A DNA stretch of 55,591 nt from positions 1-55,591 of the forward strand of contig DYJA01000001.1 in NCBI GenBank assembly GCA_020723345.1, in the 5' to 3' direction. The notes beneath the pieces are model-generated. The model was not told where the DNA came from, ran no database searches, and saw only the letters and a list, made by a program, of their open reading frames with translations. The stretch's first letter is position 1, and every line of letters begins with the position of its first letter. This DNA is from Candidatus Aquidulcis sp. (GTDB lineage: Bacteria > Chloroflexota > Anaerolineae > UBA4142). This document shows positions 23,117 to 33,414 of the stretch, piece by piece. The position numbers and the translations under genes are program-made.

Positions 23117-23938
23117 CTACTTTGCGCGGAACGCGTTCTGGATCAATTCCGGCGCGAATTTCCCGCTCGTTTCGCCTTCCGCCGCGTAGCGATAAACTGT
23201 CGCGGAGTAAATGCCGCCGAGCGTCGAACTGAGCAGCGCGAGCGCGATGTACGCCAGTACGCCCATCACGACGAACGCGACGATCAGCGCGGCGACATTC
23301 AGCGCGATGCCGAGCGCGACGCCCGCGACGATGAACGCGGTCACGAGCAAAAAGAGCAAGAAGAACACCAAGCCCATCCCCGCGCCGCCGACGATTTGTT
23401 CACCCCACGTCCGGCGCAAGTACTGCGCGCTGCGCTTGACTGCTTCGAGCGGACCGACATTTTCGACGACGAGCACCGGCACGACGAGATACGTCGCGAG
23501 ATTCCACGCCGTTCCGATGATCGAACGCACGATGTCCGCGACGACGCCGCGCTTGGAGAGCGCTTGCAAAATCATGCCGACCGTCGCGGCGATCAGCGCG
23601 TAACCAAGAATTGCGCCGAAATGACTGAGCGCGATCTGCACGCCGTCGCTCAGCGTCGGGTCCTGACCGCGCAACCGCATCATCGCCGCGCCGACGAGCG
23701 CGGAATTCGCGAAGGTGATGACGGTGTACTGGACGATGTAAAACAGAAACAACAAAACATAGCCCAGCACTTCGTTGCCGCCCGCCGCGTAGAGAAAAAA
23801 TCCCGGCACGGCGAACGCAAGCGTCACCAAGAGCAGCGCGAACGCGGAGGCGATCGGAAAGACGACGAGTTCTTTGTCATCTTGCAAAACGTTCCACGAT
23901 GCTTTGACCAAATTCCACGAACGAGAAAAGGTAGACAT
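23117..23938 (-). CDS. DUF6159-like multi-pass membrane protein
   Basis: This 273-residue integral membrane protein has about six helices. The conserved-looking start STFSRSWNLVKASWNVLQDDKELVVFP, the motif SALVGAAMMRLRGQDPTLSDG and the end GGIYSATVYRYAAEGETSGKF match, from memory, proteins listed under DUF6159 in Chloroflexota and archaea. No enzyme motif is visible. AGGAGG-type spacing precedes the ATG, and a 9-base array lies between it and the next gene. Confidence 0.8.
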   Translation of the reverse strand: MSTFSRSWNLVKASWNVLQDDKELVVFPIASAFALLLVTLAFAVPGFFLYAAGGNEVLGYVLLFLFYIVQYTVITFANSALVGAAMMRLRGQDPTLSDGVQIALSHFGAILGYALIAATVGMILQALSKRGVVADIVRSIIGTAWNLATYLVVPVLVVENVGPLEAVKRSAQYLRRTWGEQIVGGAGMGLVFFLLFLLVTAFIVAGVALGIALNVAALIVAFVVMGVLAYIALALLSSTLGGIYSATVYRYAAEGETSGKFAPELIQNAFRAK

Positions 23939-23952
23939 TTTTCCTCCTGGGG

Positions 23953-24008
23953 AGTGCGTTAGTGCGATAGTTAGGCATTCACTATTGCACTATCGAACTA
24001 TCGCACTG
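23953..24008. repeat. Array of TGCGATAGT-type units with facing arm
   Basis: GTGCGTTAGTGCGATAGTTAGG on the left faces ACTATTGCACTATCGAACTATCGCACTG on the right, each read as degenerate 8-9 base units. It separates the DUF6159-like gene from the end of the lipoprotein gene. Confidence 0.7.
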
Positions 24009-27028: not shown

Positions 27029-27679
27029 TTACTTGACACTCACCGTCACACTAAACGTTTCCGCTTTCGGGTCATCTTGCACCCACGCTTGCTTGTGGAC
27101 GAATTTCAACACCGCGCTGCCCGCGCCGACGGCTTGAAATTTGTAGACGAACTTGCCGGGTGCGCCGGGCATCGCCGCGCCGGCTTGATACTGATCCATC
27201 GGTTTCGCCGGATCGAATTGCGGCTTCAACACCTTGTCGTTGCCGGACACGAGCGACCACGCATAGCCGGTCGAGCCGGGCGCGCCTTCCAGAACAACTT
27301 CGACGATGTTACCCACCGCGGCTTGCATCGTCTTGCCGTTGTCGGCTTTGGTCACCGACACTGGTTTTGCGCCGGGTTTGCACTCGCCGCGCATAAACGC
27401 CCATTCCTCACATTCGCTCTTGTCCGCGAAAACACAGTAGCCGACTTCGCCGCCTTGCGCGTCTTTGCGAATCTCCAACTTGCCGCCGTTCTGAACACAG
27501 AACGTCGACGCCGGATTCGCGATGCTCGACCCAGGCGCGCCGGTCGTTGGCGCGACGGTTGGTTGTGTTTGAACGACGGTTACAGCAGGCGGGGCGGCGG
27601 GCGCAGGCGACGAACACGCCGCGACCAAGCCGACAAACAGCGCCAAACCGATCAACGAAAAAATCTTGGGAAAGTTCAT
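27029..27679 (-). CDS. Lipoprotein with DUF333 and chagasin-type protease inhibitor domains
   Basis: This is a 216-residue lipoprotein (lipobox LVAACSSP). After a Pro/Thr linker, residues about 55-100 form a DUF333 module (NPASTFCVQNGGKLEIRKDAQGGEVGYCVF and CEEWAFMRGEC) with paired Cys. Residues about 110-216 form an I42 chagasin-like domain: the inhibitory loop GSTGYAWSL, the GAGSAVLKF strand and HKQAW in the place of the RPW loop. Chagasin domains block papain-family cysteine proteases. The ATG at 27679 is chosen because GGAG lies eight bases upstream. It lies downstream of the NBR1-Ig operon but is separated from it by a palindrome. Confidence 0.85.
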   Translation of the reverse strand: MNFPKIFSLIGLALFVGLVAACSSPAPAAPPAVTVVQTQPTVAPTTGAPGSSIANPASTFCVQNGGKLEIRKDAQGGEVGYCVFADKSECEEWAFMRGECKPGAKPVSVTKADNGKTMQAAVGNIVEVVLEGAPGSTGYAWSLVSGNDKVLKPQFDPAKPMDQYQAGAAMPGAPGKFVYKFQAVGAGSAVLKFVHKQAWVQDDPKAETFSVTVSVK

Positions 27680-27772
27680 TTTCATTACTCCTTTCGGGAG
27701 AGAGAATATCACATTCGGGCGCAAAATTCATCTGCCGAATGATAGATTTGCGTCTCAACAAAACGCGCGGTT

Positions 27773-27807
27773 GAGACCTGTCAGGTTTCCAAAACCTGAC
27801 AGGTCTC
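27773..27807. terminator. Palindrome (GACCTGTCAGGTTT type) after the NBR1-Ig operon
   Basis: GAGACCTGTCAGGTTT faces AAACCTGACAGGTCTC around CCA, a perfect 16-base stem. It lies just past the stop of the 550-residue protein. From memory the element type is widespread in Chloroflexota genomes. Confidence 0.7.
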
Positions 27808-27817
27808 GACATCGTTC

Positions 27818-29470
27818 CTACTTTGAGAAGCAGATGTTGCCGACGTTGGTGAGATTGCCGCACATTTGATTGCTGCTGGCATTTACCGAGCCGCTGAAAC
27901 TCTGCCCGCCCAGTAAATGAGTCGCCCACGAAACCGCACCGGTGTAAACATGGAAGGTCCCGCTCACATCTGTGATTTGCGGCGTCGTCGTCCCAACTTG
28001 GTGGACCATCCGACCGGCGATGCCACATTCGGCGCTGGAACAGCCCAGCGCTTCCGTCAATTCGACGGAATAGTCTCCTGATCTCCAAATGCCATTGATA
28101 TTGCGCCGTTGCGGTACGGGTGTTGGCGGCACGGCTGTCGGCGCCGGTTGATTCACCGTGATCGTGATCGTGCGATCATCCGGCGAGCCGTCTTTTTTGA
28201 TCGAGCGCAAGGTGTATGCCGTCGTCACATTCGGCGCAACGGAACGCGCTTCGTGCCCGGTGACGCCTTGCCCGTTCAGATAGACCGCGTTCGCGCACTC
28301 GACATCCCAGCGCAGAACGGTAGACTGCCCGACGTTGATGTTGTACGAATCCGCGCGAAAGTTGACCGCGAGTTGACATTGCGGCTGCGGCTGCGTGATC
28401 ATGCCGGTGATCTTTCCCGAAGTCGTCGCTTGTCCTTGAATGTCGGTTGCAATCGCGTACAACGTATAACTTCCGACGCCCGGCTGCCACTTGAAGGAAC
28501 CGGTGATCGTGCGCGTCGCCGAGCGCGAGGTGGCTTTGCTGACCTGGGTGTTGTTGATGAAGAGCGCGACCGACGACAGTTCGGTGTTGCCGACACCCTG
28601 GAACGTGATGTACACGTCCGCGCCGGCAGCAAACGAAAAGTTCGCGCCGGGCGACGTGATGGCGGCTTGCGGCGGCGGCACCGGCACGATGGTGTTGATC
28701 TTGGCGACGAGGACGGGACCGAAGAACGCGCCGTTTTCATCGTGTAGTTGCCACTGCCCGGCGTGGACGCCACCGGCAGCCGGCGCGGTCAGCGCGATCA
28801 ACAGATCGGCGGTCTGCCCCGGCGCGATGTTCGACGGCACCGCGACCTGGGTGAGATTCGTCATCCGCTCGCCGCCCACCGACGCGAGTTGATACTTGGG
28901 ATTCCACGTACACGAGCCGACGTTTTGCACGCGCCAGATCTTGTTGAACTGTTGATTCGGTTGGAATGGCGTGCCATCCGGGACGGTCACATCCGCGATG
29001 AACGCCGCGTTGTTCGCGCAGGGTCCGGGACCCGCCGTCGGCACGACAACTGTCGGCGCGGCGGTTGGCGCACCGGTCGGCGCGACCGTCGGTGCCGGCG
29101 CGGGCGCGCCGCTCGCGACGACGACCATCGTGTCCGGATCGCTTGTCGCGTTGTCCGCGCTGTACGCGCGCGCGCTGACGGTGTGTTGACCGGCGACCGC
29201 CATCCATTTGAACGGCAGCGCGATCGATTTTTGCGGCGGATCGATCTTGGCGTCGCCCGCCGCCGCATTGTCCACCAAAAATTCCACGCGCACGATGCCT
29301 TTGCCGGAATCGCTCGCGGTCACCTGGAACGCGATTTCCTGACCCGCGCTGATCTGCCCGCTGATCGGCGTGAACTTGACCGTCGGTTTGGCGGATGCAG
29401 AGCAAGCCGCCAACGCGATCACTCCGATCAGTAGTACAAACAGCAACGATTTAAGCTTGTGGGTTTTCAC
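27818..29470 (-). CDS. Surface lipoprotein with NBR1-type Ig domain
   Basis: In this 550-residue protein the signal peptide ends at the lipobox IALAACSA. An Ig-like domain (about 25-115, EIAFQVTASDSGKGIVRVEF) comes first, then a Pro/Thr linker. The NBR1/ILRUN-type Ig domain (about 155-260) has FNKIWRVQNVGSCTWNPKYQL and GQWQLHDENGAFFGP. Two further Ig-like segments follow, then a C-terminal domain shared with the upstream paralogue (ELTEALGCSSAECGIAGR). Such domains occur on the outside of Chloroflexota cells, and binding or adhesion is the likely role. The start is a GTG with GGAG eight bases upstream. It lies in the operon behind the c-di-GMP riboswitch candidate. Confidence 0.85.
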   Translation of the reverse strand: MKTHKLKSLLFVLLIGVIALAACSASAKPTVKFTPISGQISAGQEIAFQVTASDSGKGIVRVEFLVDNAAAGDAKIDPPQKSIALPFKWMAVAGQHTVSARAYSADNATSDPDTMVVVASGAPAPAPTVAPTGAPTAAPTVVVPTAGPGPCANNAAFIADVTVPDGTPFQPNQQFNKIWRVQNVGSCTWNPKYQLASVGGERMTNLTQVAVPSNIAPGQTADLLIALTAPAAGGVHAGQWQLHDENGAFFGPVLVAKINTIVPVPPPQAAITSPGANFSFAAGADVYITFQGVGNTELSSVALFINNTQVSKATSRSATRTITGSFKWQPGVGSYTLYAIATDIQGQATTSGKITGMITQPQPQCQLAVNFRADSYNINVGQSTVLRWDVECANAVYLNGQGVTGHEARSVAPNVTTAYTLRSIKKDGSPDDRTITITVNQPAPTAVPPTPVPQRRNINGIWRSGDYSVELTEALGCSSAECGIAGRMVHQVGTTTPQITDVSGTFHVYTGAVSWATHLLGGQSFSGSVNASSNQMCGNLTNVGNICFSK

Positions 29471-29510: not shown

Positions 29511-29585
29511 TCAGAGCATCACAGCGCAGCCACTCAACGCCCACCACACAACTGCGCCAATCACGAACAAGCCAATGCGGTACAT
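29511..29585 (-). CDS. 24-residue membrane or lipoprotein-like microprotein
   Basis: ATG at 29583-29585 is preceded by GGGAGGG five bases upstream. It encodes MYRIGLFVIGAVVWWALSGC followed by AVML and a stop. The sequence is a single hydrophobic helix ending in a lipobox-like LSGC. It lies in the gap between the two paralogous NBR1-Ig genes on the same strand. The strong ribosome binding site and helix argue for translation, and nothing else does. Confidence 0.5.
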   Translation of the reverse strand: MYRIGLFVIGAVVWWALSGCAVML

Positions 29586-29638: not shown

Positions 29639-31465
29639 CTATTGTTTCGTGAAAGTCACCGAACCTGCTCCAATCAAATTGCCGGTCATCGTCCGGCTGT
29701 CCGCCGCTAACGTGCCGGTGAATCCGCCCATCGCGCCGGGACGCGCGAGGATCAGCGAGACCGCGCCGGTATGCACGTTGACCGTACCGCTCAAATCGTC
29801 GATGATCGGCGCGCCGCTCGTCGTTTCGATCAGGCGACCTTGCACGCCGCACTCCGGTCCCGGGCAGCCAAGCGCTTCGGTCAGTTCCATGATGTATTTT
29901 CCCGAATGCCAATTGCCGCTGATGTTGCGACGCTGCGGCACCGGCGTATTCGTCGGCGGAACGTGCGTCGCGGTTGGCGGCACATGCGTCGCGGTCGGTG
30001 GGACACGCGTCGCGGTCGGCGGAATCGGCGTGGGATCGGCGCAACTGTTCGTGAACGATGCTTGATTCGAAGTGAGCTGATTCGGCGTCAAGATCGCCAA
30101 CTGCGCCCACAACCCGCCTTTCGTACCCCATTCCTGCGAATACCCCGGCAATTGATGCGTGCCCGCGCCCGGCGCGTAGAACGTCATCACGGGCGATGGC
30201 GAAACTGATCCTGAGCCAACCCAGCGATACGTCACCGCGCCGGCATCGTTCGTCGTGATACTCCCGGTGTAGTAGAAATGACCGGGGCAATGTCCGACGT
30301 AATTCGATGGGTTGACGTTCATCGACGCGCCGGTGACGCGGAACGCGGGCTTGGGTGTTGGCGGAACCGGCGTCGCGGTAGGAACCGGCGCGACGACATT
30401 GATCGTGATCTGACGATTGATCGATGCGCCGCCGCAGTACGCCGTGAACGTAAACGTCGTCGTCTGATCGACCACGACCTGCAGCGAGCCGCTCGCCGGC
30501 ACCGCGCCGACGCCCGGATCGATGCGCGTCGCGCTCACGTTCGTCGCGCCCCAGTTCAGCGTGATCGCGGTGTACGGCGGAACGGAAATCGAAGACGCGG
30601 TAAACGCGGTAATGTTCGGCGAACCGGTGCAGACCGGCGTCGGCTGTGGATTCACGACGTTGATCCGCGCGTCGAGCAGCGCGCCAAAGGTTTGTCCGTC
30701 CGCGCCGCGCAATTGCCATTGCCCGGCGTGCGGTCCCGGCGCGACCGGCGCGGTCATCGCGACGCTCAGATCGAACATCGCGCCGACCGGCGTGTACGGA
30801 ATCGCGACAGTATTCTGAGTCGACATCGCTTCGCCGCCGACGAGGATCAATTGATAACCCGCGTTCCAGGGACAGGTGCCGGTATTCAGCACGCGCCAAA
30901 CCTTGTTGAACGTCTGCCCCGGTTGCATCGAGGTGCCATCCGGCACCGTGATATTGTCGGAGACGAGCGCGCTGCCGTTGACGCAGCCCGGCGGTGGAGG
31001 CATCGGCGTTGGTGTTCCGGCGACAGAGGTTGGCACCGGCGTCGCGCTGCGCGGCACAACCGTCACGGCGATTCCTGCCGGATCGTTCGCCGTGCCGTCG
31101 GCGCGGAACGCGCGCACGATGATCGTGTGTGCGCCGACGCCGGAAGCATTCCAAGTTTGGTTGCGCTGCAACGCGGTTTGCGGCGGATCGATCTTGTCTT
31201 CCTGAACCACAAGATTGTCGACCGAAAGAACGATCTTGACGATTCCTTTTGTGTCGGTCGCGGTCGATTGCACGGCGACGGCTTGCCCTTCGCCGAATTG
31301 GCTGCCCGCGGCGGGCGCGTCGATGACGACGACCGGCTTGCCTTGCGCGCCGAACACCATCGCGGCAAGCACGCCGAGAACGATCAGCGCAAGCACGATC
31401 AAACCGATGGTTAACCAAATCCACGATTTAATTTGTGGGTTGCTGGTAGAATTAGCGGTTGGCAT
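29639..31465 (-). CDS. Membrane-anchored surface protein with NBR1-type Ig domain
   Basis: This 608-residue paralogue of the downstream lipoprotein is anchored by one helix (about 14-38, IWLTIGLIVLALIVLGVLAAMVF) instead of a lipid. An Ig-like domain follows (VVVIDAPAAGSQFGEGQAV), then a Pro-rich linker. The NBR1-type domain (about 160-270) has FNKVWRVLNTGTCPWNAGYQL and GQWQLRGADGQTFG. Further beta domains come next, then a linker of tandem VPPTATH heptapeptides encoded by 21-base repeats (29954-30020). The C-terminal domain (ELTEALGCPGPECGVQGR) is shared with the paralogue. CAGGAG precedes the ATG. It starts 21 bases after the small upstream gene of the same operon. Confidence 0.85.
   Translation of the reverse strand: MPTANSTSNPQIKSWIWLTIGLIVLALIVLGVLAAMVFGAQGKPVVVIDAPAAGSQFGEGQAVAVQSTATDTKGIVKIVLSVDNLVVQEDKIDPPQTALQRNQTWNASGVGAHTIIVRAFRADGTANDPAGIAVTVVPRSATPVPTSVAGTPTPMPPPPGCVNGSALVSDNITVPDGTSMQPGQTFNKVWRVLNTGTCPWNAGYQLILVGGEAMSTQNTVAIPYTPVGAMFDLSVAMTAPVAPGPHAGQWQLRGADGQTFGALLDARINVVNPQPTPVCTGSPNITAFTASSISVPPYTAITLNWGATNVSATRIDPGVGAVPASGSLQVVVDQTTTFTFTAYCGGASINRQITINVVAPVPTATPVPPTPKPAFRVTGASMNVNPSNYVGHCPGHFYYTGSITTNDAGAVTYRWVGSGSVSPSPVMTFYAPGAGTHQLPGYSQEWGTKGGLWAQLAILTPNQLTSNQASFTNSCADPTPIPPTATRVPPTATHVPPTATHVPPTNTPVPQRRNISGNWHSGKYIMELTEALGCPGPECGVQGRLIETTSGAPIIDDLSGTVNVHTGAVSLILARPGAMGGFTGTLAADSRTMTGNLIGAGSVTFTKQ
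29954..30020. repeat. 21-base tandem repeat in a Pro/Thr linker
   Basis: Three units of the type CGGCACATGCGTCGCGGTCGG encode, on the minus strand, VPPTATH repeated three times. This is a coding minisatellite that could change spacer length by whole heptapeptides. Confidence 0.75.
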
Positions 31466-31486: not shown

Positions 31487-31717
31487 TCATCCACTGCGCT
31501 TGGACACGCTCACTTTTTTGCGGCGGGACGGCGCTTTGTCCTGCTCGCCTTGCAACGAGGTACACAAAAAAGCAAATGCCTGCTGCAAGTCGGCGAAATT
31601 TTCGCGCATCCCAGTCCGCGTGCTTTCTAACGACGCGCGCCAGACCGGTTTGCCATCCTGACGCACTTGCCACAGCCGCAGCAGATACGATTCGTAATTG
31701 GTTTGATTTTCAATCAT
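31487..31717 (-). CDS. Small conserved-looking protein, first gene of the riboswitch operon
   Basis: This 76-residue soluble protein contains SYLLRLWQVRQDGKPVWRAS, then LESTRTGMRENFADLQQAFAFL, followed by a basic tail (RRKKVSVSKRSG). From memory the SYLLRLWxV...GxPVWRASLExxxTGxRxxFADL pattern occurs in many small Chloroflexota proteins of unknown function. It is the first gene after the c-di-GMP riboswitch candidate and its terminator, with 21 bases to the NBR1-Ig gene. The start context GAGAGATACC is a modest ribosome binding site. Confidence 0.75.
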   Translation of the reverse strand: MIENQTNYESYLLRLWQVRQDGKPVWRASLESTRTGMRENFADLQQAFAFLCTSLQGEQDKAPSRRKKVSVSKRSG

Positions 31718-31770
31718 GGTATCTCTCGTACACCCTCGCGCGGGCGGTGTTGGAGCGAGTTCCCCAAAAA

Positions 31771-31957
31771 CAAAACCCGCTCCAAATATCCGAAGCGGGT
31801 TTTGCGATCCCTGTGCTGGAACCTAGCCAGTCCAAGCCCAGATCAGCGAGAATGAATGTGTCCTCTTCGGTAGCCCGGCGACCATAATCGGCGACGATTT
31901 TAGGTCCGTAGCTTTGCGTCACCGGCTTTCGCCGGGTTTGCCGTTGTCGGAGTGCTT
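31771..31957 (-). promoter_or_regulatory. Cyclic di-GMP-I (GEMM) riboswitch with terminator platform
   Basis: Read on the minus strand, 31957-31859 contains GGCAAACC, a small CCGGCGAAAGCCGG hairpin, then GGTGACGCAAAGC, ACGGACCTAAAA and GTCGCCGGGCTACCGA in that order. This is the conserved GEMM-I order (GGCAAACC, GNRA-capped P2 arm, GACGCAAAGC, CGG-CCTA, receptor arm, closing GGGNTACCG). About 55 bases on, CAAAACCCGCT pairs with its complement (31771-31804), followed by GTTTTTG, an intrinsic terminator. The first gene starts 54 bases further. Ligand-dependent read-through or termination would control the whole NBR1-Ig operon; the direction cannot be read. Confidence 0.85.
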
Positions 31958-31971
31958 TGTTTTCTGCTCTC

Positions 31972-32003
31972 CTTATACCACAGCCGCGTCACAAGCGCGT
32001 CAA
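31972..32003 (-). promoter_or_regulatory. Extended -10 promoter for the riboswitch operon
   Basis: On the minus strand TGGTATAAG (complement of 31972-31980) is an extended -10. A TTGACG (complement of 31998-32003) sits 20 bases upstream, longer than ideal. Confidence 0.5.
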
Positions 32004-32009
32004 AATAAC

Positions 32010-32046: not shown

Positions 32047-33414
32047 ATGGCAAAGTTGGAACTGGCATTTTTGGGCGCATTCCATATTACGCTCGACGAA
32101 CAACCGATCACGCGCTTTGGCACCGACAAAACCCGCGCGCTGCTCGCGTACCTGGCGATGGAATCCGGACACGCGCATCGCCGCGAAACGCTGGCGGGCA
32201 TGTTGTGGCCCGATCAGCCGGACGAAGCGGCGCGGCATAGTTTGCGGCAAGCCCTGTTGCGCTTGCGCGGCGCCATCAGCGACGCCGATAATACCGCGTT
32301 CTTGCTCGCCTCGACCGAAACGATTCAATTCAACCGCGCCAGCGCGCACTCGCTCGACGTGGCGGAATTTGCCGCGCTCGTCCAAACCTGCCAGACGCAC
32401 TTGCACCCGCGATTAGCCGATTGCGCCGCGTGCATCGCGCGCCTGCAACTCGCCACCGATTTGTATCGCGGTGAATTGCTGCGCGATCTGTTTATTGGCG
32501 AAAGCACGCAGTTCGAGGAATGGGTCCTCGTCCGCCGCGAATTGCTGCACCGCCAGGCGCTCGAATCGCTCGATACGCTCGCGGCGCACCACCTCGAACA
32601 CGGCGAGTACGCGCGCGCCCGCCAGTACGCCGCGCGCCAGATCGAACTGGAACCGTGGCGCGAAGAAGCGCATCGGACCTTGATGGGCGCGCTCGCGCGC
32701 GACGGACAGCGCGGCGCGGCGCTCGCGCAGTACGACACGTGCCGCAAGATTTTGGCGCGCGAGTTCAACACCGCCCCATCGGAAGAAACGACCAAGTTGT
32801 TCGAGAAAATTCGCAGTGGCGCATTTGAAAACAAGTTACCCGTTTCCATTGTGCCGCCACGCGACGCGCTTCCACGCGATCCCGCGAATCTGGACGCGCT
32901 CGCCGCGCTCGCGCAGTTTCACCTCGCGCAAGGCGATCTGACGCGCGCCCACGCGTACCAAACGCAAGTGCTCGCGCAGCAAAACGCGTCCGGCGATAAG
33001 AGCGCGCTTGCCGCCGCGCACCATCAACTCGGCGTCATTCTGCAACGCCAAGACAAATTGGATGCCGCGCTCGCGCACTTGCGCGACGCGCTCGCGCTGC
33101 GCGAACAAATCGGCGAACAAAGCGGCATCGCCGCATCGCTCGACGCGCTGGGGAAAATCCTGGCGCAGCAAGGCAATTGCCCCGACGCGCACGCGCATTT
33201 CTTGCGCGCGTTGAAAATTACGGAGACGATCGGTGATCCGTCGGGCAGCGCGCGCGTCTTGAAACATCTGGGCATGTTGCGCCAACGCCAGAAAAAGTTC
33301 GACGACGCGCGCGCGTGTTTCGAGCGCGCCTTGGCGCTCCAAAAAGAAATCGGCAACCGCGCGGCGATTGCCGACTTGGAAAAGCGTCTGGACGCGCGCC
33401 GCGATTCAAATTGA
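32047..33414 (+). CDS. SARP/BTAD transcriptional regulator with TPR domain
   Basis: In this 455-residue cytoplasmic regulator residues 1-95 are an OmpR-like winged helix (LELAFLGAFHITLDEQPITRFGTDKTRALLAYLAM, then LAGMLWPDQPDEAARHSLRQALLRLR). Residues about 100-255 are the bacterial transcriptional activation domain (YRGELLRDLFIGESTQFEEWVLVRRELLHRQALESLDTLA). Residues about 280-450 hold four or five TPR units. There is no NB-ARC or AAA module, so this is a short SARP. The -10 box ends eight bases before the ATG, which implies a leaderless mRNA. Its stop codon lies inside the -35 box of the T-box promoter. Its target may be the divergent riboswitch operon, but that is only positional. Confidence 0.9.
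   Translation: MAKLELAFLGAFHITLDEQPITRFGTDKTRALLAYLAMESGHAHRRETLAGMLWPDQPDEAARHSLRQALLRLRGAISDADNTAFLLASTETIQFNRASAHSLDVAEFAALVQTCQTHLHPRLADCAACIARLQLATDLYRGELLRDLFIGESTQFEEWVLVRRELLHRQALESLDTLAAHHLEHGEYARARQYAARQIELEPWREEAHRTLMGALARDGQRGAALAQYDTCRKILAREFNTAPSEETTKLFEKIRSGAFENKLPVSIVPPRDALPRDPANLDALAALAQFHLAQGDLTRAHAYQTQVLAQQNASGDKSALAAAHHQLGVILQRQDKLDAALAHLRDALALREQIGEQSGIAASLDALGKILAQQGNCPDAHAHFLRALKITETIGDPSGSARVLKHLGMLRQRQKKFDDARACFERALALQKEIGNRAAIADLEKRLDARRDSN

Follow-up and report, generated by a model that had tools for sequence, protein, structure and literature searches.

A predicted c-di-GMP-I riboswitch upstream of NBR1-Ig protein genes in a Chloroflexota bacterium

The window analysed here is a stretch of 55,591 nt from Candidatus Aquidulcis sp. 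(Chloroflexota, class Anaerolineae; contig DYJA01000001.1). An earlier note on this DNA had placed a c-di-GMP-I (GEMM-I) riboswitch on the minus strand, followed by a T-tailed terminator and genes for a 76-residue protein, two NBR1-Ig proteins and a microprotein. We find the aptamer between an extended −10 and an intrinsic terminator, upstream of the gene for the 76-aa protein. The features of the locus are as follows.

32047–33414, plus strand: divergent BTAD/TPR transcriptional regulator, a conserved neighbour
31986–32005, minus strand: upstream block TTTTGACGCGCTTGTGACGC, conserved with a syntenic ortholog in a second genus (G001) and partly in a third locus (L150)
31972–31980, minus strand: extended −10 promoter TGGTATAAG, identical in the G001 ortholog
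31863–31952, minus strand: c-di-GMP-I aptamer with the 3-nt P1 3′ strand (Rfam part 31866–31952)
31942, minus strand: equivalent of G20 of Vc2 (RF01051 model position 11)
31927–31930, minus strand: GAAA tetraloop of P2, seen in the sequence
31915, minus strand: equivalent of A47 of Vc2, a conserved A (model position 38)
31882–31904, minus strand: halves of the tetraloop receptor in P3 (CCTAA 31904–31900, TATGG 31886–31882)
31862–31870, minus strand: CCGAAGAGG, P1 3′ strand and, from complementarity and folding, putative antiterminator strand
31790–31798, minus strand: CCGCTTCGG, terminator 5′ arm, complementary to 31870–31862
31765–31805, minus strand: intrinsic terminator GCAAAACCCGCTTCGG-ATAT-TTGGAGCGGGTTTTGTTTTTG, stem of about −23 kcal/mol
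31487–31717, minus strand: gene for the 76-aa protein, first of the operon (ORF; no Pfam or NCBIfam match)
29639–31465, minus strand: 608-aa membrane-anchored protein with Big_7 and N_BRCA1_IG (NBR1-Ig) domains, by profile match
29511–29585, minus strand: putative coding 24-codon ORF MYRIGLFVIGAVVWWALSGCAVML with a lipobox-like end, preceded by GAGGGAAAG
27818–29470, minus strand: 550-aa lipoprotein with a GTG start, N_BRCA1_IG and Big_7, by profile match
27029–27724, minus strand: 231-aa lipoprotein with DUF333 and a chagasin-type I42 inhibitor domain, in the same place in the ortholog

The genes listed by the earlier note are present. A 76-aa ORF (31717–31487) follows the terminator at 31805–31765, which is a strong one, and its product is one of a small protein family with members in 65 of the 199 genomes of the class. 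Both NBR1-Ig proteins match N_BRCA1_IG (PF16158), with 85.6 and 84.1 bits against a cut-off of 28 (E 4e-24 for 31465–29639 and 1e-23 for 29470–27818), and the 24-codon lipobox ORF at 29585–29511 is the probable microprotein gene. The two NBR1-Ig proteins share with both of their counterparts in the ortholog a C-terminal stretch of ∼100 aa, RRNIxGxWxSGxYxxELTEALGC..., that lies outside all Pfam models. A contig scan of close relatives with the 608-aa protein gave no match. A perfect palindromic hairpin (GAGACCTGTCAGGTTTTGGAAACCTGACAGGTCTC, 27773–27807) lies between the gene of the second NBR1-Ig protein and that of the I42 lipoprotein, which may be transcribed separately; the hairpin core has ∼17 copies in the genome, compared with 0 for the reversed control. 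On the promoter side, the TTTTGACGCGCTTGTGACGC block is a possible regulator site or −35 region; the TTGACG it contains is 20 nt from the −10, beyond the classical spacer.

Covariance-model scoring, which the earlier note had proposed as a check on its GEMM-I assignment, gave a strong match. With cmscan and Rfam 15 on the whole window, RF01051 (c-di-GMP-I) matched at 31952–31866 on the minus strand with 81.8 bits (E 1.3e-14; curated cut-off 35 bits). The match is complete (model positions 1–87 of 87, not truncated) and is the only one in the window above its curated cut-off. Within the clan the best match is RF01051 and not c-di-GMP-I-GGC (RF03167), which scored best at only two G001 loci among the loci scanned. 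All sequence blocks named in the earlier note occur in GEMM-I order on the minus strand: GGCAAACC, the GAAA-capped P2, GGTGACGCAAAGC, CGGACCTAA with one receptor half, TATGG and GGGCTACCG. The span it gave (31771–31957) does cover aptamer and terminator; the aptamer proper is narrower, at 31866–31952 with P1 extending to 31863. The Rfam model contains P1 only in part: bases 1–3 of the model pair with the three bases that follow its end (CUC 31952–31950 with GAG 31865–31863). The GNRA tetraloop and the P3 receptor are both present, from which docking is predicted, and P2 has a single mismatch at its base. We take G20 of Vc2 to correspond to model position 11 and Vc2 position 47, by equal offset, to model position 38; the window carries G and A at these positions. 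By every sequence criterion tested the RNA is a c-di-GMP-I riboswitch that is predicted to bind its ligand.

The earlier note held that loss of the P2 and P3 arms or of the tetraloop and receptor in homologs would speak against the aptamer. Across 31 related aptamers these elements are kept, and P1 is kept as well. In this alignment 91.3% of helix cells were paired compared with 78.1% after shuffling. Changes on both sides occurred in 18 of 25 pairs, including all three P1 pairs, and double-change cells numbered 116 as opposed to 14–29 in controls with slid partners, which were at most 41.7% paired. In a larger set of 64 aptamers the three P1 pairs were formed 43, 50 and 49 times where 34.7, 26.0 and 37.3 were expected. 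P1, P2 and P3 are therefore supported by compensatory change.

When relatives were searched for the aptamer upstream of NBR1-Ig genes, as the earlier note had suggested, it was found in full synteny in another genus of the family. This locus (G001 contig 460) has the aptamer, a terminator, the NBR1-Ig genes and the divergent BTAD gene. Identities are 54% over 447 aa for the BTAD protein, 71% over 51 aa for the microprotein of the 76-aa type, 47% and 52% for the NBR1-Ig proteins and 66% for the I42 lipoprotein. A DUF6159 gene is inserted at the orthologous locus, and a DUF6159 homolog is seen further along the window (23120–23989). Between the two loci the intergenic DNA aligns over 142 nt with 76% identity (E 1e-23). 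The alignment takes in the promoter block together with the aptamer and stops at the P1 3′ strand; sequence conservation thus does not extend to the expression platform. The terminator of the ortholog, ATCGCTCCG...CGGAGCGAT followed by eight T, is unrelated to that of the window; it was assigned by hand, since the hairpin given by the automatic terminator caller was wrong.

A third orthologous locus, L150 of Anaerolineae bacterium SKW216, has the promoter, the divergent BTAD gene, a microprotein with 66% identity and an NBR1-Ig gene. It has no aptamer, and only ∼80 nt separate its divergent genes. As promoter and genes are found here without it, the switch is a lineage-specific module, gained or lost, in either direction, at a conserved promoter.

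To examine how the aptamer could act on the terminator, we folded the nascent transcript ended at the terminator loop, either unconstrained, with P2/P3 enforced or with P1 enforced. Pairing of the P1 3′ strand CCGAAGAGG with the terminator 5′ arm CCGCUUCGG reached 7.3–7.5 expected pairs when the RNA was unconstrained or P2/P3 were enforced, and 0.02 when P1 was enforced; P1 and this antiterminator are thus mutually exclusive in the computed folds. The G001 ortholog showed a like competition (9.5 vs. 3.0 pairs) despite its differing terminator. Over 43 loci, the complementarity to the own arm was −12.2 kcal/mol compared with −11.3 kcal/mol for swapped arms, with 59 of 5000 permutations as good, and only 1 of 200 sets of shuffled terminator arms was as good as the own arms. 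For the window locus alone the effect is not significant (shuffle p ∼0.095; swapped terminators equal it in 36% of cases), and taken by itself the antiterminator there is no more than suggestive. RNAfold without ligand preferred a non-aptamer fold. In the complete transcript the terminator was favoured in every state, so that switching must be kinetic and decided during transcription.

The folding and the complementarity over 43 loci point to a logic like that of Cd1, in which the ligand holds P1, no antiterminator forms and transcription terminates. We infer the switching direction and the extent of the operon from these data and conclude that the RNA is probably a transcriptional OFF switch for the genes of the 76-aa protein and the two NBR1-Ig proteins. 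Transcription would start just 3′ of the extended −10 (31980–31972). At low c-di-GMP, P1 would be unstable and CCGAAGAGG (31870–31862) would pair with CCGCTTCGG (31798–31790), delaying the terminator and allowing RNA polymerase to enter the genes. When c-di-GMP is high, its binding to the aptamer would keep P1 closed, the antiterminator would not form and termination would follow at 31805–31765.

The same aptamer could also act as an ON switch in which the ligand blocks the terminator, so that c-di-GMP induces the NBR1-Ig proteins like adhesins. Ig-like surface proteins are often adhesive, versions of this aptamer class with ON logic are known (pilM, PMC9262584), and the ∼60 nt between aptamer and terminator could hold an additional switching hairpin. 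We nevertheless regard an ON switch as rather unlikely: we found no other helix, involving the P1 5′ strand or the aptamer core, that would have to open before the terminator could form, and in the constrained fold aptamer and terminator coexist, the competing helix being the antiterminator. It is improbable, too, that the aptamer governs the 76-aa gene alone with the NBR1-Ig genes transcribed from their own promoter. The gaps of 168 and 94 nt after the second and third genes, the latter with the palindrome, would leave room for this; the first NBR1-Ig gene begins only ∼21 nt after the end of the 76-aa gene, no intrinsic terminator was called in between, and the gene order is the same in the ortholog.

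The OFF switch that we favour would respond to c-di-GMP made from distant genes. The earlier note had remarked on the lack of a nearby cyclase, EAL or HD-GYP gene; indeed none is found in the window, GGDEF, HD-GYP and PilZ hits are absent from its 280-kb contig, and no EAL domain is found in the genome. Across the whole source genome, GGDEF gave 16 hits and PilZ four, and HD-GYP genes number ∼15. With cyclases encoded elsewhere in the genome, the missing local cyclase is ordinary and the aptamer would read a pool set elsewhere. The four PilZ hits rule out that riboswitches are the only c-di-GMP effectors.

That a GEMM-I fold of this kind prefers another ligand (3′,3′-cGAMP, or a promiscuous choice), and is controlled by that dinucleotide, appears very improbable. 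The equivalent of position 20 does vary in the clade, being G in 55, A in six and C in three of 64 related aptamers, and it is C in the syntenic G001 ortholog, where it may shift ligand preference. The window has G, the c-di-GMP state, and not the A20 that marks the cGAMP riboswitches (GEMM-Ib), and its genome has the GGDEF hits and HD-GYP genes described above. In GEMM-Ib, A20G switches selectivity from cGAMP to c-di-GMP (PMC6456294), and position 20 is described as a selectivity factor and no hard filter (PMC9262584). From its sequence, we infer that c-di-GMP is the ligand of the window aptamer. A decayed copy without regulatory effect, which the aptamer-free operon of L150 (where the aptamer is evidently dispensable) and the P2 mismatch might suggest, is very improbable given the high score, the intact P1, tetraloop, receptor and binding-site bases, and the terminator retained in the diverged ortholog.

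Several characterized riboswitches resemble this one in part. Vc2 of Vibrio cholerae (RF01051) has the same P1, P2 and P3, the GAAA tetraloop with its receptor and the equivalents of G20 and A47. Vc2 is described as a translational OFF switch (PMC9262584), whereas the window aptamer is followed by an intrinsic terminator. Closer in mechanism is Cd1 of Clostridioides difficile, a transcriptional OFF switch whose terminator is compatible with the aptamer, coexists with it and competes with an antiterminator (PMC9262584). It differs in that it was reported without a detectable P1, while P1 of the window covaries, and in its phylum and target genes. The Geobacter cGAMP riboswitches (GEMM-Ib, e.g., pilM) share the overall fold of the window aptamer; they have A20, and pilM is an ON switch (PMC6456294, PMC9262584), as opposed to G20 and predicted OFF in the window.

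Such aptamers are common in this lineage. The source genome has eight, as two tandem pairs and four single copies; the family has 59, in 13 of 14 genomes; in the order, 18 of 20 genomes searched had at least one. The number per genome reached 14. A sample across the class gave 29 of 120 genomes, and none was found in 14 control genomes. The first genes after the other aptamers include those for subtilases, a gingipain-type C25 protease, a papain-type protease with I42, glycosidases, MG2 proteins, CheW, OpgC, HD-GYP and GGDEF proteins and an archaellin-containing chemotaxis operon.

NBR1-Ig genes are present in all 14 family genomes with about 70 matches and lie downstream of an aptamer only in the two orthologous operons of the window and G001 contig 460, which rules out the aptamer as their general partner; in one further genome (G008 C159) the NBR1-Ig gene is upstream of an aptamer and not downstream. 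Nor is the aptamer a fixed partner of the microprotein family. Among 44 named loci of this family, 40 were scanned with Rfam and gave no c-di-GMP match, L151 is the G001 aptamer locus, and L191–L193 were left out. Two loci of the source genome (L148:5668-9000 on C128 and L149:5737-9999 on C19) carry paralogous pairs of microprotein and BTAD genes without an RF01051 match.

Other aptamer loci showed arrangements of their own. Aptamers head operons with a response regulator first in L141:565-11776 (G007 C43), L142 (G001 C313) and L143:1-1700 (G009 C182). Those of G007 and G001 run on into archaellin genes, and by profile match the G007 operon also has ArlF/ArlG-like, CheW, CheR and CheW genes; a paper on the Chloroflexota archaellum mentions neither a riboswitch nor c-di-GMP (PMC12488501). 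In the source genome, the tandem L046:1053-1326 (C76) has A20, the GEMM-Ib state, in both aptamers and ends in a terminator, and only a convergent gene follows, making it an orphan without evident target. In the tandem L043:948-1206 (C26), the first aptamer leads to a terminator. The second precedes the leader of a 219-aa gene, where GTGTCT, next to the ribosome binding site, could base-pair with AGACAC; such an arrangement may combine control of transcription with control of translation. A tandem similar to L043 occurs on G001 C132. In order-level relatives (L095, L096, L098 and L099, genomes G014–G017), aptamer and terminator are followed by a conserved hairpin block, TGGGTCTGCT...CCCCCC...AGCAGCCCATCGC and a GC-rich hairpin. 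This block matched no Rfam family, and no gene lies close downstream of it on that strand.

It is conceivable, though we consider it doubtful, that riboswitches are a main c-di-GMP output in this Anaerolineae family. With up to 14 aptamers per genome they would control an extracytoplasmic regulon of NBR1-Ig proteins, subtilases, gingipain- and papain-type proteases, glycosidases, chemotaxis and archaellin-like proteins, and G, A or C at position 20 would tune sister loci, both orthologous NBR1-Ig operons included, to different cyclic dinucleotides.

The aptamer class is well known, but it appears that neither this NBR1-Ig target nor the fact that a second genus conserves it has been described. 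The part of a survey of GEMM regulons in sequenced genomes used here lists polysaccharide degradation alongside numerous genes without a known function, and that part does not mention an NBR1-Ig target (PMC3766115). Our literature search, which covered only a part of the subscription papers, found no paper devoted to Chloroflexota c-di-GMP riboswitches, and the NBR1-Ig operon was not found as a target in the literature searched.

Surface proteins are expected targets of this riboswitch class, and such switches are common in the lineage. The two orthologous loci with the aptamer and the one without it are a natural case of riboswitch gain or loss at an otherwise conserved operon. Proteins of the NBR1-type Ig group, uncharacterised here, are placed under a predicted second-messenger switch, which gives a handle on when they are made. 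The predicted OFF switch would have them produced at low c-di-GMP, contrary to what is expected of a simple biofilm adhesin.
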